Origin: Archivesica marissinica | Taxonomy: Eukaryota > Mollusca > Bivalvia > Venerida > Vesicomyidae | DNA length: 64,000 nt | Assembly (NCBI GenBank): GCA_014843695.1 | Contig: CM026401.1 | Span: 29,806,562-29,870,561 of the forward strand | Direction of reading: 5' to 3' | Shown here: one piece after another, positions 17,507 through 48,872 of the stretch | Position numbering within the stretch: position 1 is the stretch's first letter | How the letters are laid out: every line of letters begins with the position of its first letter | Position numbers and translations under genes: made by a program | The notes under the pieces: generated by a model | Database searches by the model: none | Seen by the model: the letters and a program-made list of their open reading frames with translations, nothing else | Told to the model about the DNA's origin: nothing

Positions 17507-17626
17507 TTATTTTTTTAATCGTCCTCTTTGTGACGTGTGTTCTGTGGTTAGTTTGCGTTTGTTATCATTGCTACATGCTGCAGCTCTTCTGTATGTGGCT
17601 GCGAAATCTGGGCATTCTTCAATTGC
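17507..17626 (-). CDS. PIGA: PIGA exon 12 (terminal coding exon)
   Basis: 120 nt including [22 protein letters not shown], then a basic, polar tail ending RGRLKK. This matches in position and character the short hydrophilic lumenal tail of PIGA, which is poorly conserved. Acceptor cttattacag. Placement rests on phase 0 continuity with exon 11 and on order. Confidence 0.75.
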   Translation of the reverse strand, partial: AIEECPDFAATYRRAAACSNDNKRKLTTEHTSQRGRLKK

Positions 17627-20600
17627 CTGTAATAAGACATGAATGTTGTACATGTCAAGCCTATTATAGATTACAGTTTAGATGATATAAACAATAATTC
17701 TGCTTTGCACTACCGTACTTACTCGCCTATAAGACGGTATTTTTATCACCAGATTATTGCTCTAAGTGGCTTCCCGTCTTATAAGTGAGTGATAAATTTT
17801 TTTTAAATAAATTAAAAAACATTGTTATTAAATCATTTTGTTTCAACTCAATAAATGATATGATGCCTTTGAAATAACTGAAAGGGTGTAAGAAAAGCAT
17901 AGACTCTCACAGCTCTATCTCGAAACTTTTAGCAAATCAAATTAATTGTTGTGCATCAGTGCATTTCTTTATGATTTGACATAATTTACAGTACAATTTG
18001 TATGATCTTTACTTCTGAGTGGTTTCCATTTTCTCAACCCGTCTTATATGCGGGTCTATGCAAAATACCATTGATTTAAGAGCAAAGTTGGAGATCGTCT
18101 TATAGTCGAGATCTTCTTATAGGTGAGTAAATACGGAATATGAAGTCAACAAGCTAGATAGTCTTCTCTCGCAGCCCATATCAAACTAGAGGATAGTACT
18201 CAGAGAGAGGTAATCCCCCGCACGGGTATTTGTCTTCTCTCACAGCCCATTTCAAACAAGAGGATAGCACTCAGAGAGAGGTAATCCCCCGCACGGGTAT
18301 TAGTCTTCTCCCGCAGCCCATTTCAAACTAGAGGATAGCACACATAGAGAGGTAATCCCCCACACTGGTATTAGTCTTCTCCTCCCACAGCCCATTTCAA
18401 ACTAGAGGATAGCACCCAGAGAGAGGTAATCCCCCACACGGGTATTAGTCTTCTCCCGCATCCCATTTCAAACTAGAGGATAGCACTCGGAGAGAGGTAA
18501 TCCCCCACACTGGTATTAGTCCTCTCTCGCATCCCATTTCAAACTAGAGGATAGCACTCGGAGAGAGGTAATCCCCCACACTGGTATTAGTCCTCTCTCG
18601 CATCCCATTTCAAACTAGAGGATAGCACTCGGAGAGAGGTAATCCCCCACACTGGTATTAGTCCTCTCTCGCATCCCATTTCAAACTAGAGGATAGCACA
18701 CATAGCGAGGTAATCCCCCACACTGGTATTTGACATAAAAAACAAATGCTTGATTACATATAACAGAGAAAGATCAAGCCCAAGGTCACAGGATATGGTT
18801 GCTATTAAAAATCTATCTACCATTTTAGTTATCTTGTACACAGACATACACACAGTCAGTTTTAGTTATCTTGTACACAGACAGATGCACCCAAAAATAA
18901 AAACAATCACCCACTACATGTATATTTGAGAAATCACTAAACTGTCCAAAAACAAAACAAAAACAAAGAAAATTCATTGAATTTATGTCCCAGCGAAAAG
19001 TGGTTTCTGGTCGGATATAACATCAATATTTTCATCCACATTTGGTCCACATCCTTGGAAACTGCAGGACTAAGAATAACGGGTAAAACAATGGGTCACA
19101 GCTCCATCCATTAATCAACAAAAGTACAGTCAACCCTGTGTTAAGCAGCCAGCAACGGGAATCACAAAAAATGGCTGCTTAGCACAGGTGGCTGCTTAAT
19201 AGAGGTCAAAAATATAATAAACAACATATTGGGAATCTGGAAACTGGCTGCAGGTTGGCTGCTTAATAGAGGTGACCACTAACACAGGTTTGACTGTATG
19301 TAAACAATGCTTATTGTGCATGCGTGACACAACAACATATGTTAAAACAGCTGTCTTAGATGTTTGTTCTGATTACCAATAACAAGCGATGCTTTCTGAA
19401 TACATGCAGGGAGTGACGAACCGATTCAGGAATGTTATACTTTCACTTAGTGTTTTGTTCATACAAATTTATTTTAGCTTAATTGCAAAACAGAGTATGC
19501 TTAAATGGTGTCACTGGGGTCAGAAGCTAGGTCACTATGTTAGCAAGGAAAATGTACTATTAATATATTAGCTTAGTTTATACAAATTTATTTTAGCCTG
19601 ATTGTGAAACAAGTTCTTACAACTTATATTAATCATTATCGAGACCTCATTCCTGATGAAATCCATCGCCACGAGAGAGAGCGAAGAGGTATGTGGAATT
19701 TAAATGCCTTGCATAAGGGCACAATCATAACGGTTCCAGCGGGTCGCAAACTCCGGGCATTTCGCACCTGAAGCGAACGCGCATCCACTGCGCTATCACA
19801 ACTTTCACTTTCAGTTTGTAATATTGCAAAAAAAAAAACACGATTACTGAGTGAAAATAATTAATTCAAATTATAATGGAAGAATGTGTAGTACCATTAC
19901 TACTTGTACGTAAAATTTCAAATTTTATATTATTTTTATTTTCATACAAAATACATCACTTTCAGCAAAATATTGCAGTGTCTGTAATGTGACTAACCTG
20001 TTGCGGTTGAAGGAAGGTAAGCAGCCAGAGAAAGAAGAGATCTATCACCATCGCTATCACAAACAGCTTGCCAGCAAGGGGACCACACTGGTAGTATCTG
20101 AAATGCACCCAAATAATTATTTTTCCAGAGTAAATACAAATTATTTGTATCAGGTTTGTCTAAAGTGTATTCTATGAGACGCAAAAGACTATCACAAAAT
20201 AGTTCATGTTGTGACTAATAATGCTTCTAAGGGAGTTACCAACAGCCCCTGACTTGAGCACATGGTCAGCATATATATCGTAGTCTCTGTGGCCTAGGGG
20301 TCTAGTGCGCCGTCGTTCGAACTCACTGTTCACTGCCAATAACAGGGCTGTGGTTTCACTATGTACCAGGCGCTTCACGGAGGTTGGAGAGTAGGGTACT
20401 GGTTCTTACCGAAGAAATGCGTGTGTTTTACTATCTGCCACAACAGACTGATCTGACAATAATCTTCAATCTGTTGAACTTGGTCAGTAACTGGTAGAAG
20501 CAGAAACATTCGGGTAGTACAACCGACATTCTGCAAGACATCTGGATAGCTTCCTCACATGATGGCATTCAGAACCCTGATGGTATACTATCCTCCAGCA

Positions 20601-23600
20601 GTGAGGGACAAGTGACTAACCACTGGATAGCTTCCTCACATGATGGCATTCAGCACCCTGATGGTATACTATCCTCCAGCAGTGAGGGACAAGTGTCAAT
20701 GACTAACCACTGGATAGCTTCCTCACATGATGGCATTCAGCACCCTGATGGTATACTATCCTCCAGCAGTGAGGGACAAGTGTCACTGACTAACCACTGG
20801 ATAGCTTCCTCACATGATGGCATTCAGCACCCTGATGGTATACTATCCTCCAGCAGTGAGGGACAAGTGTCAATGACTAACCACTGGATAGCTTCCTCAC
20901 ATGATGGCATTCAGCACCCTGATGGTATACTATCCTCCAGCAGTGAGGGACAAGTGTCAATGACTAACCACTCGGCCCATGCAGGTTCCCTATTGTACTA
21001 ACTATACTGTACCTTCTAATTCTTGTGTCAAGGTGACTGTGAGGCAATTTATGCACCATATCATAGACGACCTCTGTTCTCCGGGCGACATTCGGCCATG
21101 TGTACATGTTTTTGATACGCTCGTGAGCGATGTATGGATCTATGACGCTACCAGCTCGCCGATCGGCTATAGCCTGTTCTAGCGCTGAGAGTAAGGCTGC
21201 AATGGTAAATGAGTGAACATTTCAGGTGTGACATTGGCCTTCAAGCTATATGACAAATGCGACAGTGACCTTCAAGCTATTGACAAGTTCAACATTGACC
21301 TTTCAAGCTATGTGACTAGTGTGACATTGACTGTAAGACTATCTAACAAGTGTGACATTGACCGTAACACTTTCTGACAGGTGTGACATTGACCGTAAAG
21401 CTACATGACAAGTGTGACAAGACTTTCAAGCTACGCGACTAGTGTGACATTGACCGCCAAGCTACATAACATGAGTGACATTGACCGTCAAGCTACATGA
21501 CATGAGTGACATTGACCTCCAAGCTACATGACTAGCAAACTTCTCCTTTGTATCCACACATTTGGCTGTGATGGACATTTATGAACAATTCAAGGAAAAT
21601 AACTCTGGAGTTACCGAGGGGATTGGAACAACAGTTGGCTGGACACAAACAAGTATTGGGAAACATATTTGTACAATAACAATTTACTCCACATAAATGC
21701 CATACAATCAATATCTATGGGAATATATAACGACGTGGAACAGCAGCTATAAGCACACTTATAGCTGCTGTTCCACGTCGTTATATATTCCCATAGATAT
21801 TGATTGTTGAGTATGTAGTACAGTGTACCTATTGCTTATCAGCATTATGGAGAAAAACGATTATTGTGGATTAAAGGGTTAAATTCCAGTCCATGTTCAA
21901 CATACTGCTAATACTGAATGGACAACTCAGCTACAGACCAAATTTGGCAAACATTTCTACTAATAGTAGATATATAATATATTTATAGGAAGTCGTGATA
22001 GCGCAGTGATAGCGTGTTCACTTCACGTGCGAAAGTTCCCGAGTTCGAGCCCCGCTGTAGCCGTTACAATTGTGCCCTTAGGCAAGGCATTTAAATTCCA
22101 CAATGCCTCTTCTTTCTCGTGGCGATGGATTCCATCAGGAATGAGTTATCGAGAGTGATTATTATAATATGGTGCGAGCCGTTGTCTAAGGTTGCTAAAA
22201 CTTGTGGCCCAAACCATTTGTATTGTCATGCTATGTATTGTATTTTTACGTGTATTACATAATTTTATGTATTATTTATTTGCAATAAAATATGGTTAAA
22301 TAAAAAAATATGTGATTCATTTTGCGTTTATGCGTAGTACCGTGGTTTATTAGAATGCGCCGTGCGGCCCAGTACTTCCGGCTTCAGCATTCGAGGTTTC
22401 TGTTGAGGTTACCTCACCCTTAGGATAGAACTTTTAAGGCGGCCATATATTCGCCTGATGCACACGTTGTGGGACACGTGGAGTATTTAATAGGAGTAGC
22501 TTTGCCATGTGCTATCCTGCCCCGTCCTGGTAGGTACACCGCCATATGGTCCGGGACTGCTTATTTAATTCACAGCTAACCCCCATATCTGAGGGCCGTT
22601 CCCCTATCCGCCACCCGAGGACTCGCTGGGTAGGGGATGGTCGCCCCACTACTGAATTGGAAGCAGCATGGTCCCAGAAAAAATTTAATATAAGTTGTAA
22701 GAACTTGTTTCACAATCGAGCTAAAATAAATTTGTACAAACTAAACTAATATATTAATAGTACATTTTCCTTGCTTGCTAACATAGTGAGCAAGCTTCTG
22801 ACCCCAGTGACCCCATTTAAACATACTCTATAGAGGGCTACAGGTCAATTATGTAAATATTCAGAGTATCGGTTCATTAGGAGATGTGAATTGAATCCAA
22901 TAGTTGATGTATACAGTGTTCATTCTAGGTCAGAATTTTTGGGAGAAGTGAGAAAGCGCGTGATCGCTTCCTTAAATGGTGTTCTTTAATATACTTCTGC
23001 AAAATAGGGTTAAAATGCACAGTACAACCATTAAATACAACATTTGAATAGAAGGAGTGCTTTATAATGGGCCAGTGTATCTTACTAGACAAAATTTGAA
23101 AATAGTAAAAACCAAACAAATATTTTATTTTTTTTAAAAATTTTTAAGGGAGAAGTGGGGCCCCCAGAGGGCAAAGTCAGGGTCCCTAGGGCGACAATTT
23201 TGCCCACATCGCCCTCTAAACTGATCCCTGTGTATAGCCACTTTAATACAGGACTAACTCACCTTTGACACTGGTGAATTGAATCCAATAGTTGATGTAT
23301 AGCCACTTTAATACAGGACTAACTCACCTTTGACACTGGGTTCTGCTAGTGTGATCATGTCTGGGGGAAGTACTTCGGGTACCCCACCCACCCTGGTACT
23401 CACTACCTGTAAACTAGGAACAAATATATACATCAAAATGGGTGTAATAATTATAACCACAGTCAAACCTGTGCTAAAGGCCACCTCCGAATAAAGGCCG
23501 CATATGAAAAACCTGTCTCCAAAGACCACCATCTTTCTCTCCCGTCGAGCCATTTTCAATGCATTTTAACCCTCTATTGAGAGGCCACCTGCCAACAAAG

Positions 23601-24631
23601 GCCACTTTTTTACTTTCCCGAGGGTGGCCTTTATAGACAGGTTTGACTGTACTTAACATTTATAAATCCAAACAATTTCTCTGTCACAGTTTTGTTACCA
23701 TACCTTAGTCTATACAAATTTATTTTACCTTGATTGCGAAACAAGTTCTTACACCTTATATTAATCACTCTCGAGACCCCATTTCTGATGGAATCCATCG
23801 CCACGATGGAGAGGGAAGAGTCAATGTGAATTTAAATGCCTTGCATAATGGCACAATCGTAATGGCTACAGCTGGGCGCGAACGCTACCACTGCGCTATC
23901 TCGACTTCCACTATACCATACCTTAATTGATAGATACAAGCGACTGATACTACTTGGTAGCATAAGGTGCAGTAGAGGCTCGTTTTTCTTGATTGTTTAT
24001 TAGAGTTTATTAGAGTTTGGCTTAGTGACCTAAGCTAGATTGTTCTAATTCACCAAATAGTCTTAGCCAGGATACTATTCTGTCCAAATTTCATCAAATT
24101 CTGAATGTTATTTTTTGGTTTTGTTTATACAATTATATTAATCACTCTGGAGACCTCATTCCTAATCCATCACCACGAGGGAGAGAGAAGAGGCAATGTG
24201 GAGAATATGTGAATGGAGATATTTTATGTGGAGAATATGTGAATGGAGATATTTTATGTGGAGAATATGTGAATGGAGATATTTTATGTGGAGAATATGT
24301 GAATGGAGATATTTTATGTGGAGAATATGTGAATGGAGATATTTTATGTGGAGAATATGTGAATGGAGATATTTTATGTGGAGAATATGTGAATGGAGAT
24401 ATTTTATGTGGAGAATATGTGAATGGAGATATTTTATGTGGAGAATATGTGAATGGAGATATTTTATGTGGAGAATATGTGAATGGAGATATTTTCCAGT
24501 TATTTTGACATTCTGACAAAATTTAATCAAATTCGGACTATTTGCTAAAGAGGAGTGGTTGTTAGAAAGTATTGAATGATATGCACATGTAGATCTTCGA
24601 TGGATGACTCCCATTTATACAAATTTGGTAG

Positions 24632-24670
<39 letters not shown>

Positions 24671-27600
24671 TCAATGTGGGGGCATTCTCCCTCCCCGGCC
24701 GTCTCCGTGGTCGAGTGGTTACTGTCGCTGACTTGTATACCACTGTAAGCTGTCATCACTGGTTCAAGCCCCGCTCAGACCGTGTCTCTTTATATGAAAA
24801 AGTTGGCAGTTTCTTAAGGAGGTTGGTGCACCAAATACTGGTTAACTGTTGGAGCCTGCCCAGGAAAGGTGTTATTAGGTAAATGCCCATCGCTCAAATG
24901 GGCAACCAGTAGCGACGTTAAATAAACATAAAAAAAGAAGAAGACAGTCCCTCCTAGATGGGATACATGTTTGCTTGTTTTATTTTTTGGGGGTTAACAT
25001 CGCACCAACAGGTTAGCGCAGTGGATAGCGCGCTCGCTTCTCACCAATGCAACCCGGGTTCGATCCTCGGACCGGGAAGTATGTGAGATGGTACGGTGGT
25101 CGCCAGATCGGACAGGTGGGTTTTCTCCGGGTACTCCGGTTTCCTTCAACACGAATGACCAAATATATGCTTTCATCCGCGCCAACGAGAGTGATTACCG
25201 TAATATAAGTTGTAAAATAAATAAAGTTTAAACTTTTAAACAGCTTAGGTGATATGGCGACTTCCAGCTATTATTGGTGCAGTATGTCATGCACTGACGG
25301 GCACCCAGGTAAAACCACTGACCTACAACAAGCCAGCTGGATAGCTTCCTCACATGAAAATATTCAACACCCCCGTGGGATTAGCACCTATAGTTGTGAT
25401 GGGCAAGTGATTTGAAGTCACCGTCCGTAACCACACAGCCACAGAGGTCCCTGGGGGATACATCATGTACATGATATGATAAAGTTATGGAACATCCTGA
25501 TAGTGGATTCTGTGTGTGAAGTTGCAATGCTATAGTAGTGAACAGAAATGAACACAATTCAAACATTGGTGGGGCCGAATTCAGGAAAGTGAGTCGGTCA
25601 AAAGCTATACATAGCTTATGTTGTTATGTTATATAATATATGCATACTCAGTACTAGTATTGAGGCTTATATAAAATATTTTTTAAAACAAATTTTAAAA
25701 ATGTATTATAAAGGCAAATTGGCGGGCTAAAGGGAAAAATGGGTAGGGCTAGGACACCCTGCAATTTCGCTCAAGGAAAAAACCATACATACTGACTCAA
25801 ATATAAAATGTGTCTGTATCTCAGTTGATGCACAGATAACGTCCTCACTTTGTATCAAATTATTAAATTGATTAGCTATACAATCATACAGTACATGTGG
25901 TCTATGCCAGGTAGTGAGTGTAGAGTTATTTGAGATAATAATTGGTGGACACAGCAGCATTGTGGGTAACTTATTGGGGGATTGGGGGTGGTCATGGTCA
26001 AACTGTCCCAATCAGTTTAATTGCGTATGGCGAGTGCAACTTGTGAAGACCTGGTCTTGTAGAATAGCCTGCTCATTATTTATAGAGACAATTGGTTTAG
26101 TGTAACTGTAGACTGTCGTAAAGTACAATTAGTCATCCAATACCTACACCCAGCTTCCACTATACAGGCCTGTACCCACACTGAGGAAACTGCTTCAGTT
26201 AAAATTTCAAAAGCAAAAATAAATTTTAAAAAATTAAAAATTAAATAAAATGCCAAAAATATCCCTTTGCTGTATAAAATGTTGATTGCTAGAGATCTGA
26301 ACGGTCAGTATATAATTATATGTCTAAAATCAGAAAACGCAGGAAATTGCTCAGATTGCCTCAGTTCAAATTTTCCTCTGGCTACGGTACTGCTACAGCT
26401 ATACAGAATGCCTCAATCAGTACATACCCACAGCCTCAACTATAGCTATACAGAATGCCTCAATCAGTACATACCCACAGCATGCAGCCTCAACTATAGC
26501 TATACAGAATGCCTCAATCAGTACATACCCACAGCCTCAACTATAGCTATACAGAATGCCTCAATCAGTACAAACCCGCAGCCTCAACTATAGCTATACA
26601 GAATGCCTCAATCAGTACATACCCGCAGCATGCATCCTCAACTATAGCTATACAGAATGCCTCAATCAGTACATACCCGCAGCATGCATCCTCAACTATA
26701 GCTATACAGAATGCCTCAATCAGTACATACCCACAGCCTCAACTATAGCTATACAGAATGCCTCAATCAGTACATACCCACAGCCTCAACTATAACTATA
26801 CAGAATGCCTCAATCAGTACATACCCACAGCCTCAACTATAGCTATACAGAATGCCTCAATCAGTACATACCCACAGCCTCAACTATAGCTATTCAGAAT
26901 GCCTCAATCAGTACATACCCGCAGCATGCAGCCTCAACTATAGCTATACAGAATGCCTCGGTCAGTGATGTGTTGATTAATATATCTCCCTGCACCAATA
27001 CCTGGGTATATAAAATGTTAAGTTCCAAAAGTAACAAAGGAAATGTGGTATATGTCATGTTACATGTATATACAAACAAACTTATTACAAATTCACAGAC
27101 AAACTTATTAGTTTAGATATACATGTATTTTGTTAACATCCAGCTATAGGAATGTATCCCATTGACACAAACATACAACTAAAATTCTTAAGGTGCAGGA
27201 ACTCTGCAAAAACACATTAAACCAGACAAGTACACTGACATGTACATCTACACTTCACACTGAACACAGGACACTGACATGTACATCTACACTCCCCACT
27301 GAACACAGGACAATGACATGTACATCTACACTCCCCACTGAACACAGTACAATGACATGTACATCTACACTGAACACAGGACACTGACATGTACATCTAC
27401 ACTCCACACTGAACACAGTACAATGACATGTACATCTACACTGAACACAGGACACTGACATGTACATCTACACTGAACACAGGACATTGACATGTACATC
27501 TACACTGAACACAGGACACTGACATGTACATCTACACTGAACACATGACAATGACATGTACATCTACACTTCACACTGAACACAGTACACTGACATGTAC

Positions 27601-30600
27601 ATCTACACTCCCCACTGAACACAGGACAATGACATGTACATCTACACTGAACACAGGACAATGACATGTACATCTACACTGAACACAGGACAATGACATG
27701 TACATCTACACTCCATACTGAACACAGGACAATGACATGTACATCTACACTCCCCACTGAACACAGTACAATGACATGTACATCTACACTACACACTGAA
27801 CACAGGACAATGACATGTACATCTACACTTCACACTGAACACAGGACAATGACATGTACATCTACACTCCACACTGAACACAGTACAATGACATGTACAT
27901 ATACACTACACACTGAACACAGTACAATGACATGTACATATACACTACACACTGAACACAGTACAATGACATGTACATCTACACTACACACTGAACACAG
28001 GACAATGACATGTACATCTACACTGAACACAGGACAATGACATGTACATCTACACTGAACACAGTACAATGACATGTACATCTACACTACACACTGAACA
28101 CAGTACAATGACATGTACATCTACACTCCACACTGAACACAGTACAATGACATGTACATCTACACTCCCCACTGAACACAGGACAATGACATGTACATCT
28201 ACACTGAACACAGGAAAAGGACATGTACATCTACACTGAACACAGTACAATGACATGTACATCTACACTACACACTGAACACAGTACAATGACATGTACA
28301 TCTACACTCCACACTGAACACAGTACAATGACATGTACATCTACACTCCCCACTGAACACAGGACAATGACATGTACATCTACACTGAACACAGGAAAAG
28401 GACATGTACATCTACACTGAACACAGTACAATGACATGTACATCTACACTACACACTGAACACAGTACAATGACATGTACATCTACACTCCACACTGAAC
28501 ACAGTACAATGACATGTACATCTACACTCCCCACTGAACACAGGACAATGACATGTACATCTACACTGAACACAGGAAAAGGACATGTACATCTACACTG
28601 AACACAGTACAATGACATGTACATCTACACTACACACTGAACACAGTACAATGACATGTACATCTACACTCCACACTGAACACAGTACAATGACATGTAC
28701 ATCTACACTCCACACTGAACACAGTACAATGACATGTACATCTACACTGAACACAGGACAATGACATGTACATCTACACTCCACACTGAACACAGTACAA
28801 TGACATGTACATCTACACTGAACACAGGACAATGACATGTACATCTACACTGAACACAGGACAATGACATGTACATCTACACTGAACACAGGACAATGAC
28901 ATGTACATCTACACTGAACACAGGACACTGACATGTACATCTACACTGAACACAGTACAATGACATGTACATCTACACTGAACACAGGACAATGACATGT
29001 ACATCTACACTGAACACAGGACAATGACATGTACATCTACACTCCACACTGAACACAGGACAATGACATGTACATCTACACTCCACACTGAACACAGGAC
29101 AATGACATGTACATCTACACTCCATACTGAACACAGGACAATGACATGTACATCTACACTCCACACTGAACACAGGACAATGACATGTACATCTACACTC
29201 CACACTGAACACAGGACAATGACATGTACATCTACACTCCACACTGAACACAGGACAATGACATGTACATCTACACTGAACACAGGACAATGACATGTAC
29301 ATCTACACTGAACACAGGACAATGACATGTACATCTACACTGAACACAGGACAATGACATGTACATCTACACTGAACACAGGACAATGACATGTACATCT
29401 ACACTGAACACAGGACAATGACATGTACATCTACACTCCACTGAACACAGGACAATGACATGTACATCTACACTGAACACAGGACAATGACATGTACATC
29501 TACACTGAACACAGGACAATGACATGTACATCTACACTGAACACAGGACACTGACATGTACATCTACACTGAACACAGTACAATGACATGTACATCTACA
29601 CTGAACACAGGACAATGACATGTACATCTACACTGAACACAGGACAATGACATGTACATCTACACTGAACACAGGACAATGACATGTACATCTACACTGA
29701 ACACAGGACACTGACATGTACATCTACACTCCACACTGAACACAGGACAATGACATGTACATCTACACTGAACACAGGACACTGACATGTACATCTACAC
29801 TGAACACAGGACAATGACATGTACATCTACACTGAACACAGGACACTGACATGTACATCTACACTGAACACAGTACAATGACATGTACATCTACACTCCA
29901 CACTGAACACAGTACAATGACATGTACATCTACACTCCACACTGAACACAGTACAATGACATGTACATCTACACTCTACACTGAACACAGGACACTGACA
30001 TGTACATCTACACTCCACACTGAACACAGGACAATGACATGTACATCTACACTCCACACTGAACACAGGACAATGACATGTACATCTACACTGAACACAG
30101 TACAATGACATGTACATCTACACTCCATACTGAACACAGGACAATGACATGTACATCTACACTCCACACTGAACACAGGACAATGACATGTACATCTACA
30201 CTCCACACTGAACACAGGACACTGACATGTACATCTACACTCCACACTGAACACAGGACAATGACATGTACATCTACACTGAACACAGGACAATGACATG
30301 TACATCTACACTCCACACTGAACACAGGACAATGACATGTACATCTACACTCCACACTGAACACAGGACAATGACATGTACATCTACACTCCCCACTGAA
30401 CACAGACATGTACATCTACACTGAACACAGGACAATGACATGTACATCTACACTCCACACTGAACACAGGACAATGACATGTACATCTACACTCCCCACT
30501 GAACACGGACATGTACATCTACACTGAACACAGGACAATGACATGTACATCTACACTCCACACTGAACACAGGACAATGACATGTACATCTATACTCAAC

Positions 30601-33600
30601 ACTGAACACAGGACAATGACATGTACATCTACACTCCCCACTGAACACAGGACACTGACATGTACATCTACACTCCACACTGAACACAGGACAATGACAT
30701 GTACATCTACACTCCATACTGAACACAGGACAATGACATGTACATCTACACTCCACACTGAACACAGGACAATGACATGTACATCTACACTGAACACAGG
30801 ACAATGACATGTACATCTACACTCCATACTGAACACAGGACAATGACATGTACATCTACACTCCACACTGAACACAGGACAATGACATGTACATCTACAC
30901 TCCATACTGAACACAGGACAATGACATGTACATCTACACTCCACACTGAACACAGGACAATGACATGTACATCTACACTCCACACTGAACACAGGACAAT
31001 GACATGTACATCTACACTGAACACAGGACAATGACATGTACATCTACACTCCATACTGAACACAGGACAATGACATGTACATCTACACTTCACTCTGAAC
31101 ACAGTACACTGACATGTACATCTACACTCCACACTGAACACAGGACAATGACATGTACATCTACACTGAACACAGGACAATGACATGTACATCTACACTC
31201 CATACTGAACACAGGACAATGACATGTACATCTACACTTCACTCTGAACACAGTACACTGACATGTACATCTACACTCCACACTGAACACAGGACAATGA
31301 CATGTACATCTACACTGAACACAGGACAATGACATGTACATCTACACTCCATACTGAACACAGGACAATGACATGTACATCTACACTTCACTCTGAACAC
31401 AGTACACTGACATGTACATCTACACTCCACACTGAACACAGGACAATGACATGTACATCTACACTACACACTGAACACAGTACACTGACATGTACATCTA
31501 CACTCCCCACTGAACACAGGACAATGACATGTACATATACACTACACACTGAACACAGTACAATGACATGTACATCTACACTACACACTGAACACAGGAC
31601 AATGACATGTACATCTACACTACACACTGAACACAGGACAATGACATGTACATCTACACTACACACTGAACACAGTACAATGACATGTACATCTACACTA
31701 CACACTGAACACAGTACACTGACATGTACATCTACACTCCCCACTGAACACAGGACAATGACATGTACATCTACACTCCCCACTGAACACAGTACAATGA
31801 CATGTACATCTACACTCCCCACTGAACACAGGACACTGACATGTACATCTACACTCCCCACTGAACACAGGACAATGACATGTACATCTACACTCCCCAC
31901 TGAACACAGTACACTGACATGTACATCTACACTCCATACTGAACACAGGACAATGACATGTACATTTTACACCAATTGCGAAACAAGTTTCAACAACTTA
32001 TATTAATCATTCTCGTTGGCATGTAAATGTGGTCATTCATGTGGGAGGAAACATGAATACCCGGAGAAAACCCACCTGTCCAGTCTGGCAACCACCGTAC
32101 CATCTCGCATACTTCCCGGTCCGAGGATCTAACTTGGGTTGCTTTGGTGAGAAGCGAGCGCGCTAACCACTGCACTAATCGGACAGCCCATAGTAACAGC
32201 AACAATATTACCATTGATTATGTATACTGAAGCAGAATAATATGAAATATTTACATTGCATTTCCTTCGACGAACGTATGTGCACAGATTGTATACATTT
32301 TCGTATGAGGGTTCCCAACTAATGATATGCAGCTGACATGCGCACTCGAAGCTATGGGCCTGCGCATTCGCAGTGTTAGATTGCATTCATCGCGAGAAAA
32401 GGCGTGTCTTACCGTTTATGCTGTTCCAAGGATGATCTATTTACCTGTTCTGACACACGGTATGTTGCAAATCTGGACTAAAAGCATTTTAAATGCAAAG
32501 TGAGCTATATTTATTTGTGTCATTGAAAAGAATAATTAATGTAAATATAAGGAATGAATCACGGGTTAATAGTTGCCATCGGGTATGAACTACATTGGCT
32601 GTGTTTAAAGTTGGCGTGTATACCTTCGGCCTCCACACACTTTAACCATGCCCAATGTAGTTCATACCCCAATGGAAACTATTAACCCGTGATTCATTCC
32701 TTAAAGAGAATATCCATACATTTCTGACTTGACTGTGCTTCAACGAACCAAGGAATGTAACTCTCTCCTGAAGCTGGTAATTCTCCCGTATTTCCTCTAA
32801 CAGTATTTGCTTCTCTCCATCACCACCTGTTTATAGATAGCATACACAGTAGTAAGTATACGATAATAGACGGGTCAGTGATCCAGTGCTTAACATGTTG
32901 GACTGAGAATCCAGGTTTGATCCCCCGTTTGACCCTAATAATATTAAAGCGACACTATATCGGTGAAAACGCAAAATTATACAGAATATAATTTCCTATT
33001 ATATGGTATAATTTGTTTTCCAAATATTTGCCTCAAAAACTGAGTATTTCAACTAATAAACAAGCGTCGTATACGCGGCTTGTTGACATAACAAAATAAT
33101 GTAAACAGAGTCAGCATACATGTGCAATACAACCTGTGTATCCCGAATATCGAGATTTATGGTACAGATTTACCGTTATATCTCACATTTGTGCCTATTC
33201 ATATTTATTTGTAGACTAATCTTAGTTAAATTATCTCTAAGCGACAGTATCACGTGTTTAGTATTGACTCCAATGACAAACAAATGTCATTTCAGGAGCG
33301 TGGATGACTGTTATATGAAATCCTGAAAGTTTGTAGACCTCAAACACACAGTTTATGGAGTTGATGTTAGTGTTCGAATGTATTCAGAAGAATTTGTAGT
33401 AGCAATGCATTCATACGTGAACAAATGCATTTTATTTGCTTTTTGCGATGTAATGTCGCTTTAACAGTTATTCAGATGGGACTATAAACCGAGGTCTTAT
33501 GTACCGATGCTATACACCTGGCATGTAAATAGTCGGCCTCCGTGGTCGCGTGGTTAAAGTATAACACTGTAACCTATCATACTGATGGTCACAGGTTCGA

Positions 33601-36600
33601 GCCCCGTTCAGACTGTGTCTCTTTATATGAAAATGTTGGTAGTTTCTTACGGAGGTTGGTGCACAATAGTTAAACTTTTTTTAAAAATGCATGTAAAACA
33701 ACCACGGGCTACATTTGGAGCATCTTCTGTATATGACTGGTATATTTGGGATATTTCGGTATATGACTACAGGACCTAGAAATGAATACTTCAAAAACAG
33801 AATTTATAATGTTTGGTAGCAGGCAACAGCTTTGTAAATGCGATACAAAAACAATTTGCATAACAGGAGATGAAATCAAACCAGGAAGTTGTATACGATA
33901 TATGGGGGTATTTCCCGGATGAAACATTAAATTTCAAAGAGTATGTGAAACGAAAATGTCGAACTGCAATGTTAAACTATTTCAGAATCAAAAGTATGCG
34001 AAAGTATCTCACTAAAGAAGCTGCAGAAACGCTCATGTTGTCACGGTTATTTCACATCTTGACTATTGTAATATAATACTCCATGGAATCGCACATAGCG
34101 AGATTAACAAATTGCAACGTATACAAAACATGTGAGCAAAACTAGTCCTTAATGGCAGGAAATATGACAGCTCTACGCAAGCTTTGTTTGACCTGCATTG
34201 GTTACCCATCAAAGCCAGAATTACATTCAAAATGTTAACTTTTATGTACAACTGCTCAGTTGGTAATTCTCCTGACTACCTTACCGAGATTCTAACAATA
34301 CATACCCCATCACGGAACTTACGATCGTCCCATTCTATTAGTGGGTGCTATGTTGTGCCATTTAATAAGAGAAAACATTTACATTTAGTGATAGAAGTTT
34401 TTGTACTGTGGGACCAAAAATGTGGAATGAGTTGCCTATCGGCATCAGCAACTCAAAGACTTTTAAAAAAACAATTTAAGAAGAAACTGAAAACGCATTA
34501 CTTTCGAGACTTTTACGCACTATTTGAGTGAATGCAGTGACTGAGATAGAAAGTAAATTGTATTAAATGAATAATGTTAATTTTACCTTGTAGATAATAA
34601 AAGTGCATCAGTTAGTCTTAAACATACTGTTTTATGTTCTTATTCATGAATGTAATATTTTAATATTTATTATTATGCCGAGTTTTATATTGGTTTTAGG
34701 AGATTGTATTTTATTCTAATTATCTCAGAGTTTAATTAATAACTGTTAAGACGTGTGATGTATATGTCTTTTATTAATTTGCTTTGCTATTTATTTTATT
34801 TATTGTACAAATATTGTACTGCCTTTGAATATGTTTTTATGTAAATATAGGCGTTTTATCAATTTTTCACAGGAGTTTACTGTAATAGTGAGCTCTAAAT
34901 GAGCTTTACGGAAGATGACCACGCTTCAGACGATGATCATATATAACAAATTGTTAAAGTAGAAATGCTGGTCAAAATGTCACAGTTTTTATTATTACCT
35001 GAAATAATCATAAAAGCTGTAAGTTGACATAGTACCAGTAAGTGGTTAGTTACCTATTATAAACTGTACGTCTGGTGTACCAGTAAGTGGTTAGTTACCT
35101 ATTATAAACTGTACGTCTGGTGTACCAGTAAGTGGTTAGTTACCTATTATAAACTGTACGTCTGGTGTACCAGTAAGTGGTTAGTTACCTATTATAAACT
35201 GTACGTCTGGTGTACCAGTAAGTGGTTAGTTACCTATTATAAACTGTACGTCTGGATGCTTAGCACATATCTCGGGTATTATACCTGCCAGGAGGTCCAT
35301 ACCCTTCCTGTAGACCAGTCTACTCACTATCACTATGGTAACTGGAAACAAGAGAGTAGAACAGTAAACACAGGAACCAGTCTACTCACTATCACTATGG
35401 TAACTGTAAACAAGAGAGTAGAACAGTAAATACAGGAACCAGTCTACTCACTATCACTATGGTAACTGGAAACCAGATAGTAGAACAGTAAATACAGGAA
35501 CCAGTCTACTCACTATCACTATGGTAACTGGAAACCAGATAGTAGAACAGTAAATACAGGAACCAGTCTACTCACTATCACTATGGTAACTGGAAACCAG
35601 ATAGTAGAACAGTAAATACAGGAACCAGTCTACTCACTATCACTATGGCAACTGTAAACAAGAGAGTAGAACAGTAAATACAAGAACCAGTCTACTCACT
35701 ATCACTATGGTAACTGGAAACCAGAGAGTAGAACAGTAAATACAAGAACCAGTCTAGTCACTATCACTATGGTAACTGTAAACAAGAGAGTAGAACAGTA
35801 AACACAGGAACCAGTCTACTCACTATCACTGTGGTAACTGTAAACAGAGAGTAGAACAGTAAACACAGGAACCAGTCTACTCACTATCACTATGGTAACT
35901 GGAAATCAGGTAGTCAAACAGTAAACACAGGAACCAGTCTACTCACTATCACTATGGTAACTGGAAATCAGGTAGTCAAACAGTAAACACAGGAACCAGT
36001 CTACTCACTATCACTGTGGTAACTGTAAACAAGAGAGTAGAACAGTAAACACAGGAACCAGTCTACTCACTATCACTGTGGTAACTGGAAACAAGAGAGT
36101 AGAACAGTAAACACAGGAACCAGTCTACTCACTATCACTATGGTAACTGGAAATCAGGTAGTCAAACAGTAAATACAGGAACAAATCTTGCAGATATATT
36201 GGGTATATACATACAGTTTACATACATCAGATATAAAAAGGTATGCACACTTTTATCTGGCTGTCTCTTGGACGGATCAGGATGGAACATGGTGGAATCA
36301 ACAGCATTCGGTATTACAGACACCAGGTCCGGTTTGATACATGCCCGTAACACTGTATTTTCTTTACTGAAATAATAAAACACATGTCCAACATTCAATA
36401 AAGATAATTATCCACGTGGATTGTGGAATCCAGGTGTAATAGGAAATATATTGTTACTACAAATGTTCAAAGTGGAAATAAATGTGCATAAACTAAACAA
36501 ATGTTCGAGAAGGTGTAATTAAGAGTGGTTAAGGTCATTCACTTCAAAACATTTTGTTTTGAAAATTTCTAATGCGGCGCAATTCGTGTTGAAACGAGCG

Positions 36601-39600
36601 TGTTAGATGGTTTTTTATATGAAGAATAATCATAATCCAATCAGAACGCTCGTTTCAACGCGAATTGCGCCGCTTTAGAAATGTTCAAAACAAATTGAAA
36701 ATGCTACGAAATCTCTTTTTGACGTACATTTTTGCTGAATAAACCTACACGTTAGTGGAAACACATTTTATTGATAATGTTATTCACAGTTAAAACTCTC
36801 CCGTTGAAGATTTTTTTTTGTTGCTGACAGAACCCGTGTCCTAGTATGGAAATGTGACCTGCTATGGCCAATGTATGTGGCAATTGTTTGCAAAGTATAC
36901 ATGCATGCAGCTTAAAGTTGTATTTTATTTGAAGAACAATATAAAGACTCGGGATAGGCGTTATATTTGGACAGCTTTGTACAAAATTGTTTCAGATAGG
37001 GCCATTTTACTGATCGATGCGAAAGAAATCTGACATCCAACAGAGTAGAATCCCTGTACTTAAATATATACTAGTACCCCCAAACGTGCTGAATCCCTGT
37101 GACACAGATAGTATGACTACAGTTAGGTAGGGAGTGGATATGTTACTGTGCATGTGATACACAGATAGCATGACTACAGTTAGGCAAGGAGTGGATACGT
37201 TACCTTGTATGTGATACACAGATAGCATGACTACAGTTAGGCAAGGAGTGGATATGTTACCTTGTATGTGATACACAGATAGCATGACTACAGTTAGGCA
37301 AGGAGTGGATACGTTACCTTGTATGTGATACACAGATAGCATGACTACAGTTAGGCAAGGAGTAGATACGTTACCTTGTATGTGATACACAGATAGCATG
37401 ACTACAGTTAGGCAAGGAGTGGATATGTTACCTTGTATGTGATACACAGATAGCATGACTACAGTTAGGCAAGGAGTGGATATGTTACCTTGTATGTGAT
37501 ACACAGATAGCATGACTACAGTTAGGCAAGGAGTAGATACGTTACCTTGTATGTGATACACAGATAGCATGACAACAGTCAGCTAAGGAGAACTTGAGCA
37601 ATTTGTTTGTGAGTATTGAACTGGCATCAGCAAATCCGAACAAAGAATGGTCAGTGAAAACTGTCTTTAAACCCATATTACGAGCATGGAACATTGCCTC
37701 ATGGGCCATCGTTGAAAATGCCTGAAAAAAAAGGTCGTAATAGATTACGTAAACCTACCTGTAACTAACACAACAAACAAAAAGTGCATGTAAACTGTAT
37801 GTAAACAGATCTTAAAACACTAACTCAATATAAATACATTATAGTACAATATGGCGGCAGTATCAGTAAAAATATGATCCATATAAAATTCAGGGGCCTT
37901 CATGGCCGAATGGTATAAATGTTGGTATCGAATCACTTGCCCCTCACATATGTAGGTTTGAATCCCACTCGGCCCTGAGGATGCTAGGAAGCTGGATGCT
38001 GTAGGTTGGTGGTTCTAACCTGGATGTCCGCTGGGCCTAAAACACGGCTCGGTTGTGCACCCGGGGTCTTCCTCCCCCAATAACAGCTGGAAGGACAATC
38101 TGCTTTCGTTAACCAACAATACAATCGTTATAATCTTAAATCAAAGTTTAGATGTTAAAACATGTACAGTCAAACCTGTCTTTAGCAGCCAGCCAAGGGA
38201 GTGGTAAAAATTGGCTGCTTAACACAGGTGGCTGCTTAATTGAGGTTAAGTGCTGAACCAATTGCCATAGTTGGAGTTTGGTTACTGGTTGCTTAATAGA
38301 GGTTGGCTGCTTCATAGAGGTGACCGCAAACACAGGTTTGATTGTACATAGCTGATTTCATCAAATTTTACCCACATGTGAAATTAATTAAAATAAATCT
38401 TTCAAACGTGAAGGGTACAACTAAGGACACATACGGTAGGACCATTTTGTCATGACATCCTTGGGACAGTGAGACATTCTGTCATGACATCCTTGGAGCA
38501 GTGGGACATTCTGTCATGACTTCCTTGGGACAGTGAGACATTCTGTCATGACATCCTTGGGACAGTGAGACATTCTGTCATGACATCCTTGGGACAGTGA
38601 GACATTCTGTCATGACATCCTTGGGACAGTGGGACATTCTGTCATGACATCCTTGGGACAGTGAGACATTCTGTCATGACATCCTTGGGACAGTGGGACA
38701 TTCTGTCATGACATCCTTGGAGCAGTGGGACATTCTGTCATGACTTCCTTGGGACAGTGAGACATTCTGTCATGACATCCTTGGGACAGTGAGACATTCT
38801 GTCATGACATCCTTGGGACAGTGGGACATTCTGTCATGACATCCTTGGGACAGTGAGACATTCTGTCATGACATCCTTGGGACAGTGAGACATTCTGTCA
38901 TGACATCCTTGGGACAGTGAGACATTCTGTCATGACATCCTTGGGACAGTGGGACATTCTGTCATGACATCCTTGGGACAGTGAGACATTCTGCATGACA
39001 TCCTTGGGACAGTGGGACATTCTGTCATGACATCCTTGGGACAGTGAGACATTCTGTCATGACATCCTTGGGACAGTGAGACATTCTGTCATGACATCCT
39101 TGGGACAGTGAGACATTCTGTCATGACATCCTTGGGACAGTGAGACATTCTGTCATGACATCCTTGGGACAGTGGGACATTCTGTCATGACATCCTTGGG
39201 ACAGTGGGACATTCTGTCATGACATCCTTGGGACAGTGGGACATTCTGTCATGACATCCTTGGGACAGTGAGACATTCTGTCATGACATCCTTGGGACAG
39301 TGAGACATTCTGTCATGACTTCCTTGGGACAGTGAGACATTCTGCCATGACTTCCTTGGGACAGTGGGACATTCTGTCATGACATCCTTGGGACAGTGAG
39401 ACATTCTGTCATGACATCCTTGGGACAGTGAGACATTCTGTCATGACATCCTTGGGACAGTGAGACATTCTGTCATGACATCCTTGGGACAGTGAGACAT
39501 TCTGTCATGACTTCCTTGGGACAGTGAGACATTCTGTCATGACTTCCTTGGGACAGTGAGACATTCTGTCATGACTTCCTTGTAGCAGTGAGACATTCTG

Positions 39601-42600
39601 TCATGACTTCCTTGGAACAGTGAGACATTCTGTCATGACATCCTTGGGACAGTGAGACATTCTGTCATGACATCCTTGGGACAGTGGGACATTATGTCAT
39701 GACATCCTTGGGACAGTGGGACATTCTGTCATGACATCCTTGGGACAGTGGGACATTCTGTCATGACATCCTTGGAACAGTGGGACATTCTGTCATGACA
39801 TCCTTGGGACAGTGGGACATTCTGTCATGACATCCTTGGGACAGTGGGACATTCTGTCATGACATCTTTGGAACAGTGGGACATTCTGTCATGACATCCT
39901 TGGGACAGTGGGACATTCTGTCATGACATCCTTGGGACAGTGGGACATTCTGTCATGACATCCTTGGGACAGTGGGACATTCTGTCATGACATCATTGGG
40001 ACAGTGGGACATTCTGTCATGACATCCTTGGGACAGTGGGACATTCTGTCATGACATCCTTGGGACAGTGGGACATTCTGTCATGACTTCCTTGGGACAG
40101 TGAGACATTCTGTCATGACATCCTTGGAACAGTGGGACATTCTGTCATGACATCCTTGGGACAGTGGGACATTCTGTCATGACATCCTTGGAACAGTGGG
40201 ACATTCTGTCATGACATCCTTGGGACAGTCTGTCATGACATCCTTGGGACAGTGGGACATTCTGTCATGACTTCCTTGTAGCAGTGGGACATTCTGTCAT
40301 GACATCCTTGGAACAGTGGGACATTCTGTCATGACATCCTTGGAACAGTGAGACATTCTGTCATGACATCCTTGGGACAGTGGGACATTCTGTCATGACA
40401 TCCTTGGAACAGTGGGACATTCTGTCATGACTTCCTTGGAACAGTGGGACATTCTGTCATGACATCCTTGGGACAGTGGGACATTCTGTCATGACATCCT
40501 TGGGACAGTGGGACATTCTGTCATGACTTCCTTGGAGCAGTGGGACATTCTGTCATGACTTCCTTGGGACAGTGGGACATGATGTCATGACATCCTTGGG
40601 ACAGTGGGACATTCTGTCATGACTTCCTTGGAACAGTGGGACATTCTGTCATGACATCCTTGGGACAGTGGGACATTCTGCCATGACATCCTTGGGACAG
40701 TGGGACATTATGTCATGACATCCTTGGGACAGTGGGTCATTCTGTCATGACATCCTTGGGACAGTGGGACATTCTGCCATGACATCCTTGGGACAGTGGG
40801 ACATTCTGCCATGACTTCCTTGGGACAGTGGGACATTCTGCCATGACTTCCTTGGAACAGTGGGACATTCTGCCATGACTTCCTTGGAACAATGGGACAT
40901 TCTGTCATGACTTCCTTGGGACATCAGTGGCACACTCTGTCATGAATCTAATTTGCAACAATGAGTAAGGTGCTAACTAACTTACCGAATGGCCATGAAC
41001 AATGGTTATTCTCTCTCGTATAAATATGTTCCTGAGTAGAGGAAATGTAGTGAGTATGGTGGGCAGAACACACTGGTTGTACATCGTCGGGAAGGGGAGA
41101 TAATATACCTAGAAGTACATAAAACATGGTTACAGATAATATACCTGGAAGTTCATAAAACATGGTTACAGACAATATACCTAGAAGTACATCAAACATG
41201 GTTACAGACAATATACCTAGAAGTAAATCAAACATGGTTACAGACAATATACCTAGAAGTACATAAAACATGGTTACAGACAATATACCTAGAAGTAAAT
41301 CAAACATGGTTACAGATAATATACCTAGAAGTACATAAAACATGGTTACAGACAATATACCTAGAAGTAAATTAATTTGATTTAAACATGGTTACAGACA
41401 ATATACCTTGAAGTAAATCAAACATGGTTACAGGCAGTATACCTAGAAGTACATAAAACATGGTTACAGACAATATACCTAGAAGTAAATCAAACATGGC
41501 TACAGACAATATACCTAGAAGTACATAAAACATGGTTACGGACAATATACCTAGAAGTAAATCAAACATGGTTACAGACAATATACCTAGAAGTAAATCA
41601 AACATGGTTACAGATAATATACCTAGAAGTACATAAAACATGGTTACAGACAATATACCTAGAAGTACATCAAACATGGTTACAGATAATATACATAGAA
41701 GTACATAAAGCATGGTTACAGACAATATACCTAGAAGTAAATCAAACATGGTTACAGATAATATACCTAGAAGTACATAAAACATGGTTACAGACAATAT
41801 ACCTAGAAGTAAATCAAACATGGTTACAGACAATATACCTAGAAGTACATCAAACATGGTTACAGACAATATACTCTAGAAGTAAATCAAACATGGTTAC
41901 AGACAATATACCTAGAAGTAAATCAAACATGGTTACAGACAATATACTCTAGAAGTAAATCAAACATGGTTACAGACAATATACAAAGAACTAAATCAAA
42001 CATGGTTTCAAACAATATACCTTGAAGTAAATCAAACATGGCTACAGACAAAATACAAGGAATTAAATCCAACATGCTTCCTCAGAATCATATAGAATGC
42101 ATATATATATACATAACACTTTCACTCAATATGTAACAGAAGGCTGTAGAGCGCAATCGGTTAAACGTTGAACTATCATGCTGGAGGTCAGGGTTCGATT
42201 CTACAAGAAACTGTTTCATATTGACATTAGATTTGTAATTATGATTGATATTTAATTAGATAAATCAATGCATGAACAATTGTTTCGGAGAGGATGCCCC
42301 TAGACAAGGCTTACACACTTGGTGCTCGATTCCATGCCCCCTCCCAAATACGGAATCCACACCCGCAATATCCCAAACAGAAATACTGACAAATTGAAAG
42401 TGATCTACAGTATGTTATTACCTTGAGTCCATTATCGAGGTAGCGCACACCTTTTCGGTTACCATAGAAATGCGTGACAACAATCACTTTGTGGCCTCTG
42501 TTGATGAGGCACTGTGACAGATGGTAGATATGACTCTCCACGCCACCCTGGTTCGGGTAGAAAAAGTCTGACACCATACTGCAAAACAATATATGACGTG

Positions 42601-45600
42601 TTTCGCAATAGAGCTAAAATAGATTTGTGTATTCAAGTATATGGGAGTATAGTATCCAATATAAGTAACAGAGAGAATATGCATCCATACACTATCACAT
42701 ACCGAGAGAATATGCATCCATACACTATCACATACCGAGAGAATATGCATCCATACACTCACATACCGAGAGAATATGCATCCATACACTATCACATACC
42801 GAGAGAATATGCATCCGTACACTATCACATACAGAGAGAATATGCATCCATACACTATCACATACAGAGAGAATATGCATCCGTACACTCACATACCGAG
42901 AGAATATGCATCTATACACTCACATACCGAGAGAATATGCATCCGTACACTATCACATACAGAGAGANNNNNNNNNNNNNNNNNNNNNNNNNNNNNNNNN
43001 NNNNNNNNNNNNNNNNNNNNNNNNNNNNNNNNNNNNNNNNNNNNNNNNNNNNNNNNNNNNNNNNNNNNNNNNNNNNNNNNNNNNNNNNNNNNNNNNNNNN
43101 NNNNNNNNNNNNNNNNNNNNNNNNNNNNNNNNNNNNNNNNNNNNNNNNNNNNNNNNNNNNNNNNNNNNNNNNNNNNNNNNNNNNNNNNNNNNNNNNNNNN
43201 NNNNNNNNNNNNNNNNNNNNNNNNNNNNNNNNNNNNNNNNNNNNNNNNNNNNNNNNNNNNNNNNNNNNNNNNNNNNNNNNNNNNNNNNNNNNNNNNNNNN
43301 NNNNNNNNNNNNNNNNNNNNNNNNNNNNNNNNNNNNNNNNNNNNNNNNNNNNNNNNNNNNNNNNNNNNNNNNNNNNNNNNNNNNNNNNNNNNNNNNNNNN
43401 NNNNNNNNNNNNNNNNNNNNNNNNNNNNNNNNNNNNNNNNNNNNNNNNNNNNNNNNNNNNNNNNNNNNNNNNNNNNNNNNNNNNNNNNNNNNNNNNNNNN
43501 NNNNNNNNNNNNNNNNNNNNNNNNNNNNNNNNNNNNNNNNNNNNNNNNNNNNNNNNNNNNNNNNNNNNNNNNNNNNNNNNNNNNNNNNNNNNNNNNNNNN
43601 NNNNNNNNNNNNNNNNNNNNNNNNNNNNNNNNNNNNNNNNNNNNNNNNNNNNNNNNNNNNNNNNNNNNNNNNNNNNNNNNNNNNNNNNNNNNNNNNNNNN
43701 NNNNNNNNNNNNNNNNNNNNNNNNNNNNNNNNNNNNNNNNNNNNNNNNNNNNNNNNNNNNNNNNNNNNNNNNNNNNNNNNNNNNNNNNNNNNNNNNNNNN
43801 NNNNNNNNNNNNNNNNNNNNNNNNNNNNNNNNNNNNNNNNNNNNNNNNNNNNNNNNNNNNNNNNNNNNNNNNNNNNNNNNNNNNNNNNNNNNNNNNNNNN
43901 NNNNNNNNNNNNNNNNNNNNNNNNNNNNNNNNNNNNNNNNNNNNNNNNNNNNNNNNNNNNNNNNNNNCACATACCGAGAGAATATGCATCTATACACTAT
44001 CACATACCGAGAGAATATGCATCCATACACTCACATACCGAGAGAATATGCATCTATACACTATCACATACCGAGAGAATATGCATCTATACACTATCAC
44101 ATACCGAGAGAATATGCATCCATACACTCACATACCGAGAGAATATGCATCCGTACACTATCACATACCGAGAGAATATGCAGCCATACACTATCACATA
44201 CAGAGAGAATATGCATCCGTACACTATCACATACAGAGAGAATATGCATCCGTACACTATCACATACAGAGAGAATATGCATCCGTACACTATCACATAC
44301 CGAGAGAATATGCATCCGTACACTATCACATACCGAGAGAATATGCATCCATACACTCACATACAGAGAGAATATGCATCCGTACACTATCACATACAGA
44401 GAGAATATGCATCCGTACACTATCACATACAGAGAGAATATGCATCCATACACTATCACATACAGAGAGAATATGCATCCGTACACTCACATACCGAGAG
44501 AATATGCATCTACACTATCACATACCGAGAGAATATGCATCCATACACTATCACATACAGAGAGAATATGCATCCATACACTATCACATACAGAGAGAAT
44601 ATGCATCCGTACACTATCACATACCGAGAGAATATGCATCCATACACTCACATACAGAGAGAATATGCATCCATACACTATCACATACCGAGAGAATATA
44701 CATCCATACACTATCACATACCGAGAGAATATGCATCCATACACTATCACATACCCAGAGAATATGCATCCATACACTCACATACCGAGAGAATATGCAT
44801 CCATACACTCACATACCGAGAGAATATGCATCTATACACTATCACATACAGAGAGAATATGCATCTATACACTATCACATACAGAGAGAATATGCATCTA
44901 TACACTATCACATACAGAGAGAATATGCATCTATACACTATCACATACCCAGAGAATATGCATCCATACACTATCACATACAGAGAGAATATGCATCTAT
45001 ACACTATCACATACCGAGAGAATATGCATCCATACACTCACATACCGAGAGAATATGCATCCATACACTATCACATACCGAGAGAATATGCATCCGTACA
45101 CTATCACATACCATCATAAGTGAGTGCTTAAAACATTTTAAAATATTAAAATATGTTACATGTAAATGGGTTAGTGTATACAAATTTATTTTAGCTTGAT
45201 TGCGAAACAAGTTCTTACAACTTATATTCTCGAGACCTCATTCCTGATGGAATCCATCGCCACGAGGGAGAGAGAAGAGGCAACGTGGAATTTAACTGCC
45301 TTGCCTAAGGGCACAATCGCAACGGCTCCAGCGGGGCTCGAACTCCGGACCTTTCACACCCGAAGCGACCGCCACTGTGCTATCACGACTTCCATCATGT
45401 AAATGGTAGTAGGCCCCTATCCATAATTACGTCTTAGAAAGGAAAGCACTCTGACACAGAAAATATCTTCAACTTGCACTGGCCGAACATGCAATTTATA
45501 CTTGCACTGGCCGAACATGCAATTTATACTTGCACTGGCCGAACATGCAATTTATACTTGCACTGGCCGAACATGCAATTTATACTTGCACTGGCCGAAC

Positions 45601-47621: not shown

Positions 47622-48856
47622 ATATATACTAATGGATAAAAGAAACTGTGCACAACAGAAAATGTTACACACAAAAAGATATTTTAGAAGGTAAAAACAT
47701 AGCGGACAATAAACACTTGGGAAATCATTTTGCATCAAATTTTATCTCATGTTTCCCCGAGTGGCACGTGCACTTCGTTTACACACGTGATTTTGAAAAT
47801 TTAAGAACGGTTCATTATTCACTTGGCTCTAAATATTGTAAAAAACATGTTAATTTAAACCTGAATTATGCGTACGTCATGCCACGGCTTACAGAAATTC
47901 AACGTCTTCGCGCCGTGTGTATGCTTGAAACTGGAATGGCCCAAATTGAAGTTGCCAGACATTTTGGTGTCCATCGAAACACGATAATATCTCTATGGAG
48001 ACGTTTTCAACAGAATGGAAACACGAGGGACTTGTCTCGGACCGGCCGTCCACGCGTGACGTCACGTCAGCAAGACAACCGCATTTGACTGACTCATCTC
48101 AGAAATCGATTCCAGAGTTCCAGCTTGACCTCTCGGACCATTCCTGGCCTTCGTCCAATCAGTTCCAGGACTGTACGGAACCGACTGAGGGAGCGCATTA
48201 TCCGGCCCAGACGGCCTGCAGGCACGTCTTGCCTGGTGCAGACAGCATCTACGGTACAGGAGACAAGATTGGGACGGTGTTCTGTTCACTGACGAGTCGA
48301 GATTTCACCTGGACTGCTCAGATGGCAGGGCAATGGTGTACAGACGTCCAGGTGAACGGTATGCTGACGCGTGCGTAGTTCAACGTCGAGCGTTTGGTGG
48401 CGGCAGCGTTATGGTATGGGGAGGTATCACATCTCATGGGCGGACCCAACTTGTCATTGTGAATGGCAATCTAACAGGACTGCGATACAGGGAAGAAATC
48501 ATTCGGCCTCATGTGCAAACGTTTATTCAAGGACAAAGACGTAACGTCACGTTTCAGCAAGATAATGCCCGTCCACACGTGACTCATGTTGTGACAGACT
48601 TCTTGAGACAGCACAACATAGCGGTCCTTCCCTGGCCATCTGTTTCTCCAGACCTGTCTCCTATCGAGCACGCATGGGATGAAATGGGGCGATGTCTACG
48701 TCAGGCCCCGAATCAGTCATTGACGTTAGCTGCTTTGGGACAAATGTTGGTTGGGATATGGAACAACATTCCACAAGCATGTTCTTATGTTTTGTCATTA
48801 GAAAATACCATGCCTGCAGCTGATGCACAGTTCCTTTTTTATCCATTAGTATATAT
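47622..48856 (+). mobile_element. Tc1/mariner element with TIRs
   Basis: About 1.2 kb. The inverted ends read tatatactaatggataaaa at 47623 on and, reversed, at the right end (48825-48856). The TA-rich flanks fit a TA target site, expected for Tc1/mariner. It lies 25 nt upstream of the PIGA exon 1 acceptor, in opposite orientation to PIGA. Confidence 0.9.
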
Positions 48857-48872
48857 TCAACGTCACATATAA
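47879..48872 (+). pseudogene. Tc1-type DD34E transposase, inactivated
   Basis: Starts MPRLTEIQRLRAVCMLETGM; helix-turn-helix QIEVARHFGVHRNTI; GRPRVTSRQQDNRI then a TGA at 48086-48088 where family members have Arg. A frameshift follows near 48220-48235. Catalytic residues are intact: Asp in LFTDESRF (codon 48291), Asp in FQQDNARPH (codon 48561), Glu in LSPIEHAWDE (codon 48666), with 34 residues between the last two, so DD34E. C-terminus runs to TAA at 48870-48872. The protein would cut and paste the element; one stop and one shift make this copy non-autonomous. Confidence 0.9.

Follow-up and report, generated by a model that had tools for sequence, protein, structure and literature searches.

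Tandem repeats across exon borders of PIGA are probably mirages of a minisatellite-crowded, bivalve-like genome

We analyzed a stretch of 64,000 nucleotides (hereafter, the window) of contig C16 in a genome of 1.54 Gb, in which the coding gene PIGA has tandem repeats that cross its exon borders and multiply its splice sites. We consider that these ladders of splice sites are probably "mirages", the name given to tandem repeats over exon-intron borders in amphioxus (PMC3087553, PMC3902484), arising in a genome crowded with minisatellites that tolerates copies of exon edges. We give this reading a probability of about 0.7. It is supported by the density of arrays, by the early stops that follow the use of distal splice sites, by the presence of edge arrays in other genes, and by the absence of such repeats from the middles of 65 exons. 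The repeats concern four donors (a duplication at exon 9 included) and two acceptors. Exon mapping, Tandem Repeats Finder (TRF), and the copies of the junctions bear out the six edge repeats, with their unit lengths, that a first-pass annotation had described. The gene and its edge repeats are as follows:

17507..47565, minus strand: PIGA coding gene, 12 exons, 458 aa, from exon mapping, a Pfam domain, and a protein match
41098..42076, minus strand: exon 3 acceptor array, 36 bp; the unit joins ~25 nt of intron 2 to the initial ~11 nt of exon 3 (40986-41108)
37102..37590, minus strand: exon 4 donor array, 57 bp (exon 37546-37721); the unit is the exon end plus the intron start; 8 junction copies
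35314..36182, minus strand: exon 6 acceptor array, 62 bp (exon 35234-35341); 14 copies, with 28 exon nt per unit by TRF
35032..35255, minus strand: exon 6 donor array, 45 bp; 5 copies, with 22 exon nt per unit
26393..26966, minus strand: exon 8 donor array, 47/54 bp (exon 26919-27001); 11 copies
23231..23339, minus strand: exon 9 donor duplication, period 65, two copies (2-3 in the first description), without a TRF row (exon 23328-23413); ~12 exon nt are repeated

All introns of PIGA are GT-AG, and the 458-aa frame is unbroken across the 12 mapped exons. The PIGA domain was detected by Pfam in the window. The closest protein, from the hard clam Mercenaria mercenaria, shows 88% identity at 96% query coverage and matches the exon joins in an alignment judged by eye; this match points to a source that is probably a venerid-like bivalve. 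Once overlapping TRF rows were merged, 13 minisatellites were found to cover half of the 30 kb of the gene, a 1000-N gap counted in; this count leaves out a TA microsatellite and a two-copy 18-bp row.

The copies carry splice signals that are almost all intact. In the exon 3 acceptor array, TRF counts ~27 copies, and 24 junction sites were matched by pattern, 22 of them with AG. The dinucleotide is kept at every junction of the exon 4 donor array (8/8 GT; TRF extends this array 45 nt into the exon), of the exon 6 acceptor array, which occupies most of the 909-nt intron 5 (14/14 AG), of the exon 6 donor array (5/5 GT), and of the exon 8 donor array (11/11 GT). Overall, it is intact at 62 of the 64 matched junction sites, the six real ones included, in agreement with the ladders initially reported. 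Unit lengths and sequences differ from one array to another, as expected if they had separate origins. The eight remaining arrays of the gene overlap no exon, and only one of 740 14-mers sampled from them nearly matches an exon, which confirms that they are not exon-derived. We also searched for the first 20 nt of the units of the five edge arrays and of seven other arrays of the window, and found matches only within the window (including its stretch L001) among the ~362 kb of genome examined. Hence, as far as this DNA goes, we rejected a mobile unit spreading between genes.

A run of 1000 N at 42968-43967 lies inside a neighbouring 33-bp array, where the assembly does not fix copy numbers. 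This gap makes the copy numbers of arrays unreliable and speaks in favor of an artefact in which the assembler inserted the repeat units. Such an origin is extremely unlikely, as copies differ from each other in several arrays and arrays were found in all the sampled gene regions. More precisely, the copies of the exon 3 and exon 4 arrays have diverged, and in the latter the exon-proximal copy and copies 2-8 differ at the positions they have in common. The exon 6 donor array has five copies that are identical across their shared part; they look young, and this array is the least secure against an assembly artefact.

We then joined each distal site of PIGA in silico to its partner exon and translated the product. 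All 58 distal sites tested, 56 of which have an intact GT or AG, lead to an early stop, the normal stop being codon 459. Translation ends at codon 159 after use of distal exon 4 donors, and at codons 235, 304, and 331 after use of those of exons 6, 8, and 9, respectively; distal acceptors bring the stop to codons 63-68 (exon 3) and 212-224 (exon 6). Therefore, none of the tested distal sites yields PIGA, which leaves the exon-proximal ones, and we infer that these are the ones used. This lends indirect support to the earlier proposal that the duplications are tolerated because only the exon-proximal site is used. The 58 early stops, and the 56 intact sites among them, would also suit functional ladders, in which the spare sites would form a poison-splicing switch lowering the output of PIGA. 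We find this very unlikely: chaperonin and synthetase genes, which are unrelated, have ladders of a similar kind (see below), early stops are expected from most intron read-through, and amphioxus mirages are reported as not altering the mRNA (PMC3087553, PMC3902484).

Under the mirage reading, a short stretch including an exon edge would be tandemly duplicated in place and would then expand into the intron as a minisatellite. Given the very high density of arrays (~1 per kb of collapsed DNA), founder units may sometimes overlap exon ends. Copies inside the exon would break the protein and be removed, while those at the edge would survive if the exon-proximal site is used and mis-spliced RNA is eliminated.

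How often should chance place an array on an exon edge? Within PIGA, we collapsed each array to one unit, placed it at random outside exon interiors, and counted overlaps of at least 8 exon nt. Five of the 13 arrays span an edge where 0.65 were expected (P ~3e-4). This P value is not independent of selection, since PIGA had been singled out for its edge arrays, and we therefore turned to a sample of other genes. We used exon matches from the same genome, retaining 47 of 57 for PF00118 (chaperonins) and 20 of 23 for PF00133 (tRNA synthetases). Ten chaperonin matches were left out: four came from a second copy of a C11 gene, a fifth also lay on C11, three had long open frames (C10, C19), and two lay at the limits of the retrieved stretches or beyond them; a narrower scan covering seven of the ten gave no match. 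The three synthetase matches left out were one duplicate and two low-ranking ones. We scanned 134 edges by 16-mers and sequence inspection, and removed four belonging to duplicated C8 exons, which left 130 edges from 65 exons. The C8 chaperonin gene has apparent repeated exons ~10 and 13.6 kb apart (C8:10271974/10282029 and 10278406/10291982), which may reflect either a true duplication or haplotypes left unmerged.

Edge arrays were found at 8 of the 130 sampled edges: 7 of 65 donors and 1 of 65 acceptors. In the chaperonin genes, 12 edges had matches, of which five were counted and seven excluded as outside the edge, distant (2783 nt), or weak; the excluded ones include C18:41776124, whose array begins ~35 nt inside the intron by a donor read by eye. 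The donor array of C14:22786233, which begins at a distance of 7 nt from the exon, was excluded from the count. In the synthetase genes, we counted three edges (the donors of L059 and L061 and the acceptor of L067) and excluded L058 (a repeat past the exon, in a match with stops), L061 on its acceptor side, and L063 on its donor side. Three of the seven donor arrays contain only 2, 4, and 7 exon nt by TRF, and the donor boundary of L059 was placed by hand after its array had been noticed.

These counts must be set against the density of arrays: in the 196 kb surrounding the chaperonin exons, arrays account for 41% of the sequence and number 1.10 per collapsed kb. For overlaps of at least 2 exon nt, this density predicts between 0.028 (arrays of at least 3 copies) and 0.046 (all arrays) edge arrays per edge. 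The eight observed at all sampled edges compare with 3.6-6.0 expected (P 0.03-0.26), so that the total does not convincingly exceed the expectation. The first-pass suggestion that exon borders are duplication hotspots is thus not established, even if donors, taken alone, are high. The density of edge arrays in PIGA is striking, yet compatible with a minisatellite-crowded genome given how the gene was chosen.

Some of these data weigh against the mirage reading and in favor of exon borders, above all donors, being true hotspots of minisatellite birth, for instance through transcription-linked DNA damage or an AGGTAAG-like motif. These are the 5 of 13 PIGA arrays at edges, far above the chance expectation given above; the higher proportion of such edges in PIGA than in the sample (5/22 vs 8/130, Fisher P 0.024); and the seven sampled donors where 1.8-3.0 were expected (P 0.003-0.03). 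We nevertheless regard a true hotspot as unlikely. Acceptors show no excess (1/65 for the same expectation), all edges together give 8 against 3.6-6.0 expected, the sample is small and includes the hand-set boundary of L059, and the evidence from donor motifs weakens on closer comparison. A donor-like motif (score of at least 5) is present in 24 of 75 non-edge array units, against a control rate of 0.17 in array-free DNA, and such motifs are commoner in the units on both strands. Against dinucleotide shuffles, the excess is smaller and similar on both strands (24 vs 15.8 in sense, 21 vs 14.2 in antisense). These data do not establish the motif as a strong donor-specific cause of array birth.

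The hotspot claim had come with a proposal to compare the recurrence of exon edges with that of random positions, and we ran this comparison on the sample. The terminal 20 nt of an exon, at either end, have at least two further copies within 300 nt at 4 of the 130 edges (3/65 for the last 20 nt and 1/65 for the first), whereas 177 of 480 positions drawn at random between chaperonin exons do so; the exon middles give 0/65 and PIGA 4/22. By the refutation criterion proposed with it, the hotspot claim fails. However, random positions look repeated because expanded arrays fill ~40% of the sampled DNA and each is counted many times. The raw comparison is therefore unfair to the claim, and we discarded it as evidence and preferred the one based on collapsed units, in which donors look high.

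The difference between donors and acceptors has a Fisher P of 0.06 in the sample and of 0.046 when PIGA and the exon 9 duplication are added, and the donor bias (7/65) is suggestive only. We analyzed distances at the 107 edges with a good splice call, dropping 23 with weak calls that are kept in the 130-edge count. Of these, 48 are donors, 7 of which have an array that begins inside or at the exon end, and 59 are acceptors, where this holds for only one. Among the 40 donors and 58 acceptors still array-free, the first array starts 10-200 nt out at 8 and 21, respectively. Hence, acceptor flanks do hold arrays, and only those crossing the edge are lacking. This fits the idea that acceptor ladders are less well tolerated than donor ladders, although numbers are small. 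It is tempting, if doubtful, to see donors as preferred sites of minisatellite birth or survival, with about one donor in ten bearing a ladder of spare donors and acceptor ladders being rare. If this were true, exon borders would be a steady source of raw material for changes in splice sites and introns.

Other features of the window and the genome were recorded. One intron of PIGA has a perfect inverted repeat at 21704-21807 (50-nt arms, 4-nt spacer). Imperfect nested inverted repeats at 32548-32703 (36-nt arms at 94% and 31-nt arms at 87%), ~17 nt behind the exon 7 donor, are perhaps a small transposon. Broken open reading frame pieces at 47648-48872 on the plus strand, just upstream of exon 1 of PIGA, resemble what we take to be a Tc1-like transposase. 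One 35-bp unit is common to three separate arrays (54227-55740, 56791-57668, and 58713-59988), and one 37-bp unit to two (2151-3566 and 4567-7271). No matches were obtained when the window was scanned for Rfam families and tRNAs. Elsewhere in the genome, myosin-head exon matches of identical score recur several times over ~170 kb (C5:40016100-40185263), as gene copies or unmerged haplotypes.

These results extend mirages from amphioxus to a bivalve-like lineage, where they are not rare (8/130 sampled edges). The dozens of intact decoy splice sites beside real ones provide a natural test of exon-proximal choice and of the way tandem duplication may feed intron change. If upheld genome-wide, the asymmetry between donors and acceptors would reveal which decoys are tolerated by splicing. 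The structure itself is already known from amphioxus. As far as our searches reach, what is new is its presence in a bivalve-like lineage, the accumulation of six in one gene, and the estimate of a rate: a literature search for mirage-like edge repeats in clams and molluscs yielded no report recognizable from titles or abstract openings, in a corpus that covers little of the subscription literature.

Two known systems are close to what we describe. In the AGGT model, for which a case is reported in potato RdRp, tandem genomic duplication is a route to intron gain (PMC4974935). The PIGA repeats share with it a tandem duplication carrying splice signals, but their spare sites are located within introns that already exist and, if used, would lead to early stops. 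The amphioxus mirages are closer. They are reported in Adh3, the globins BflGb6 and BflGb9, troponin C, and PGBD5 (the last two from PMC3902484). Their units measure 10-160 bp in Adh3 and the globins, AG/GT signals are present in many copies, they are described as minisatellite-like, and RT-PCR by the authors suggests undisturbed splicing (PMC3087553, PMC3902484). Mirages are also characterized by a copy number that varies between alleles or cells and by an exon-proximal copy that is spared the homogenization of the internal ones; on the latter point PIGA gives a mixed picture, with a distinct proximal copy at exon 4 and identical copies, over the shared part, at the exon 6 donor. Our case differs by the phylum, by the five arrays and one duplication in a single gene, by the rate estimated against array density, and by being known from the DNA of one assembly. 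As in amphioxus, the repeat units of PIGA span the exon-intron boundary, at donors and at acceptors, and their copies carry potentially usable splice signals.
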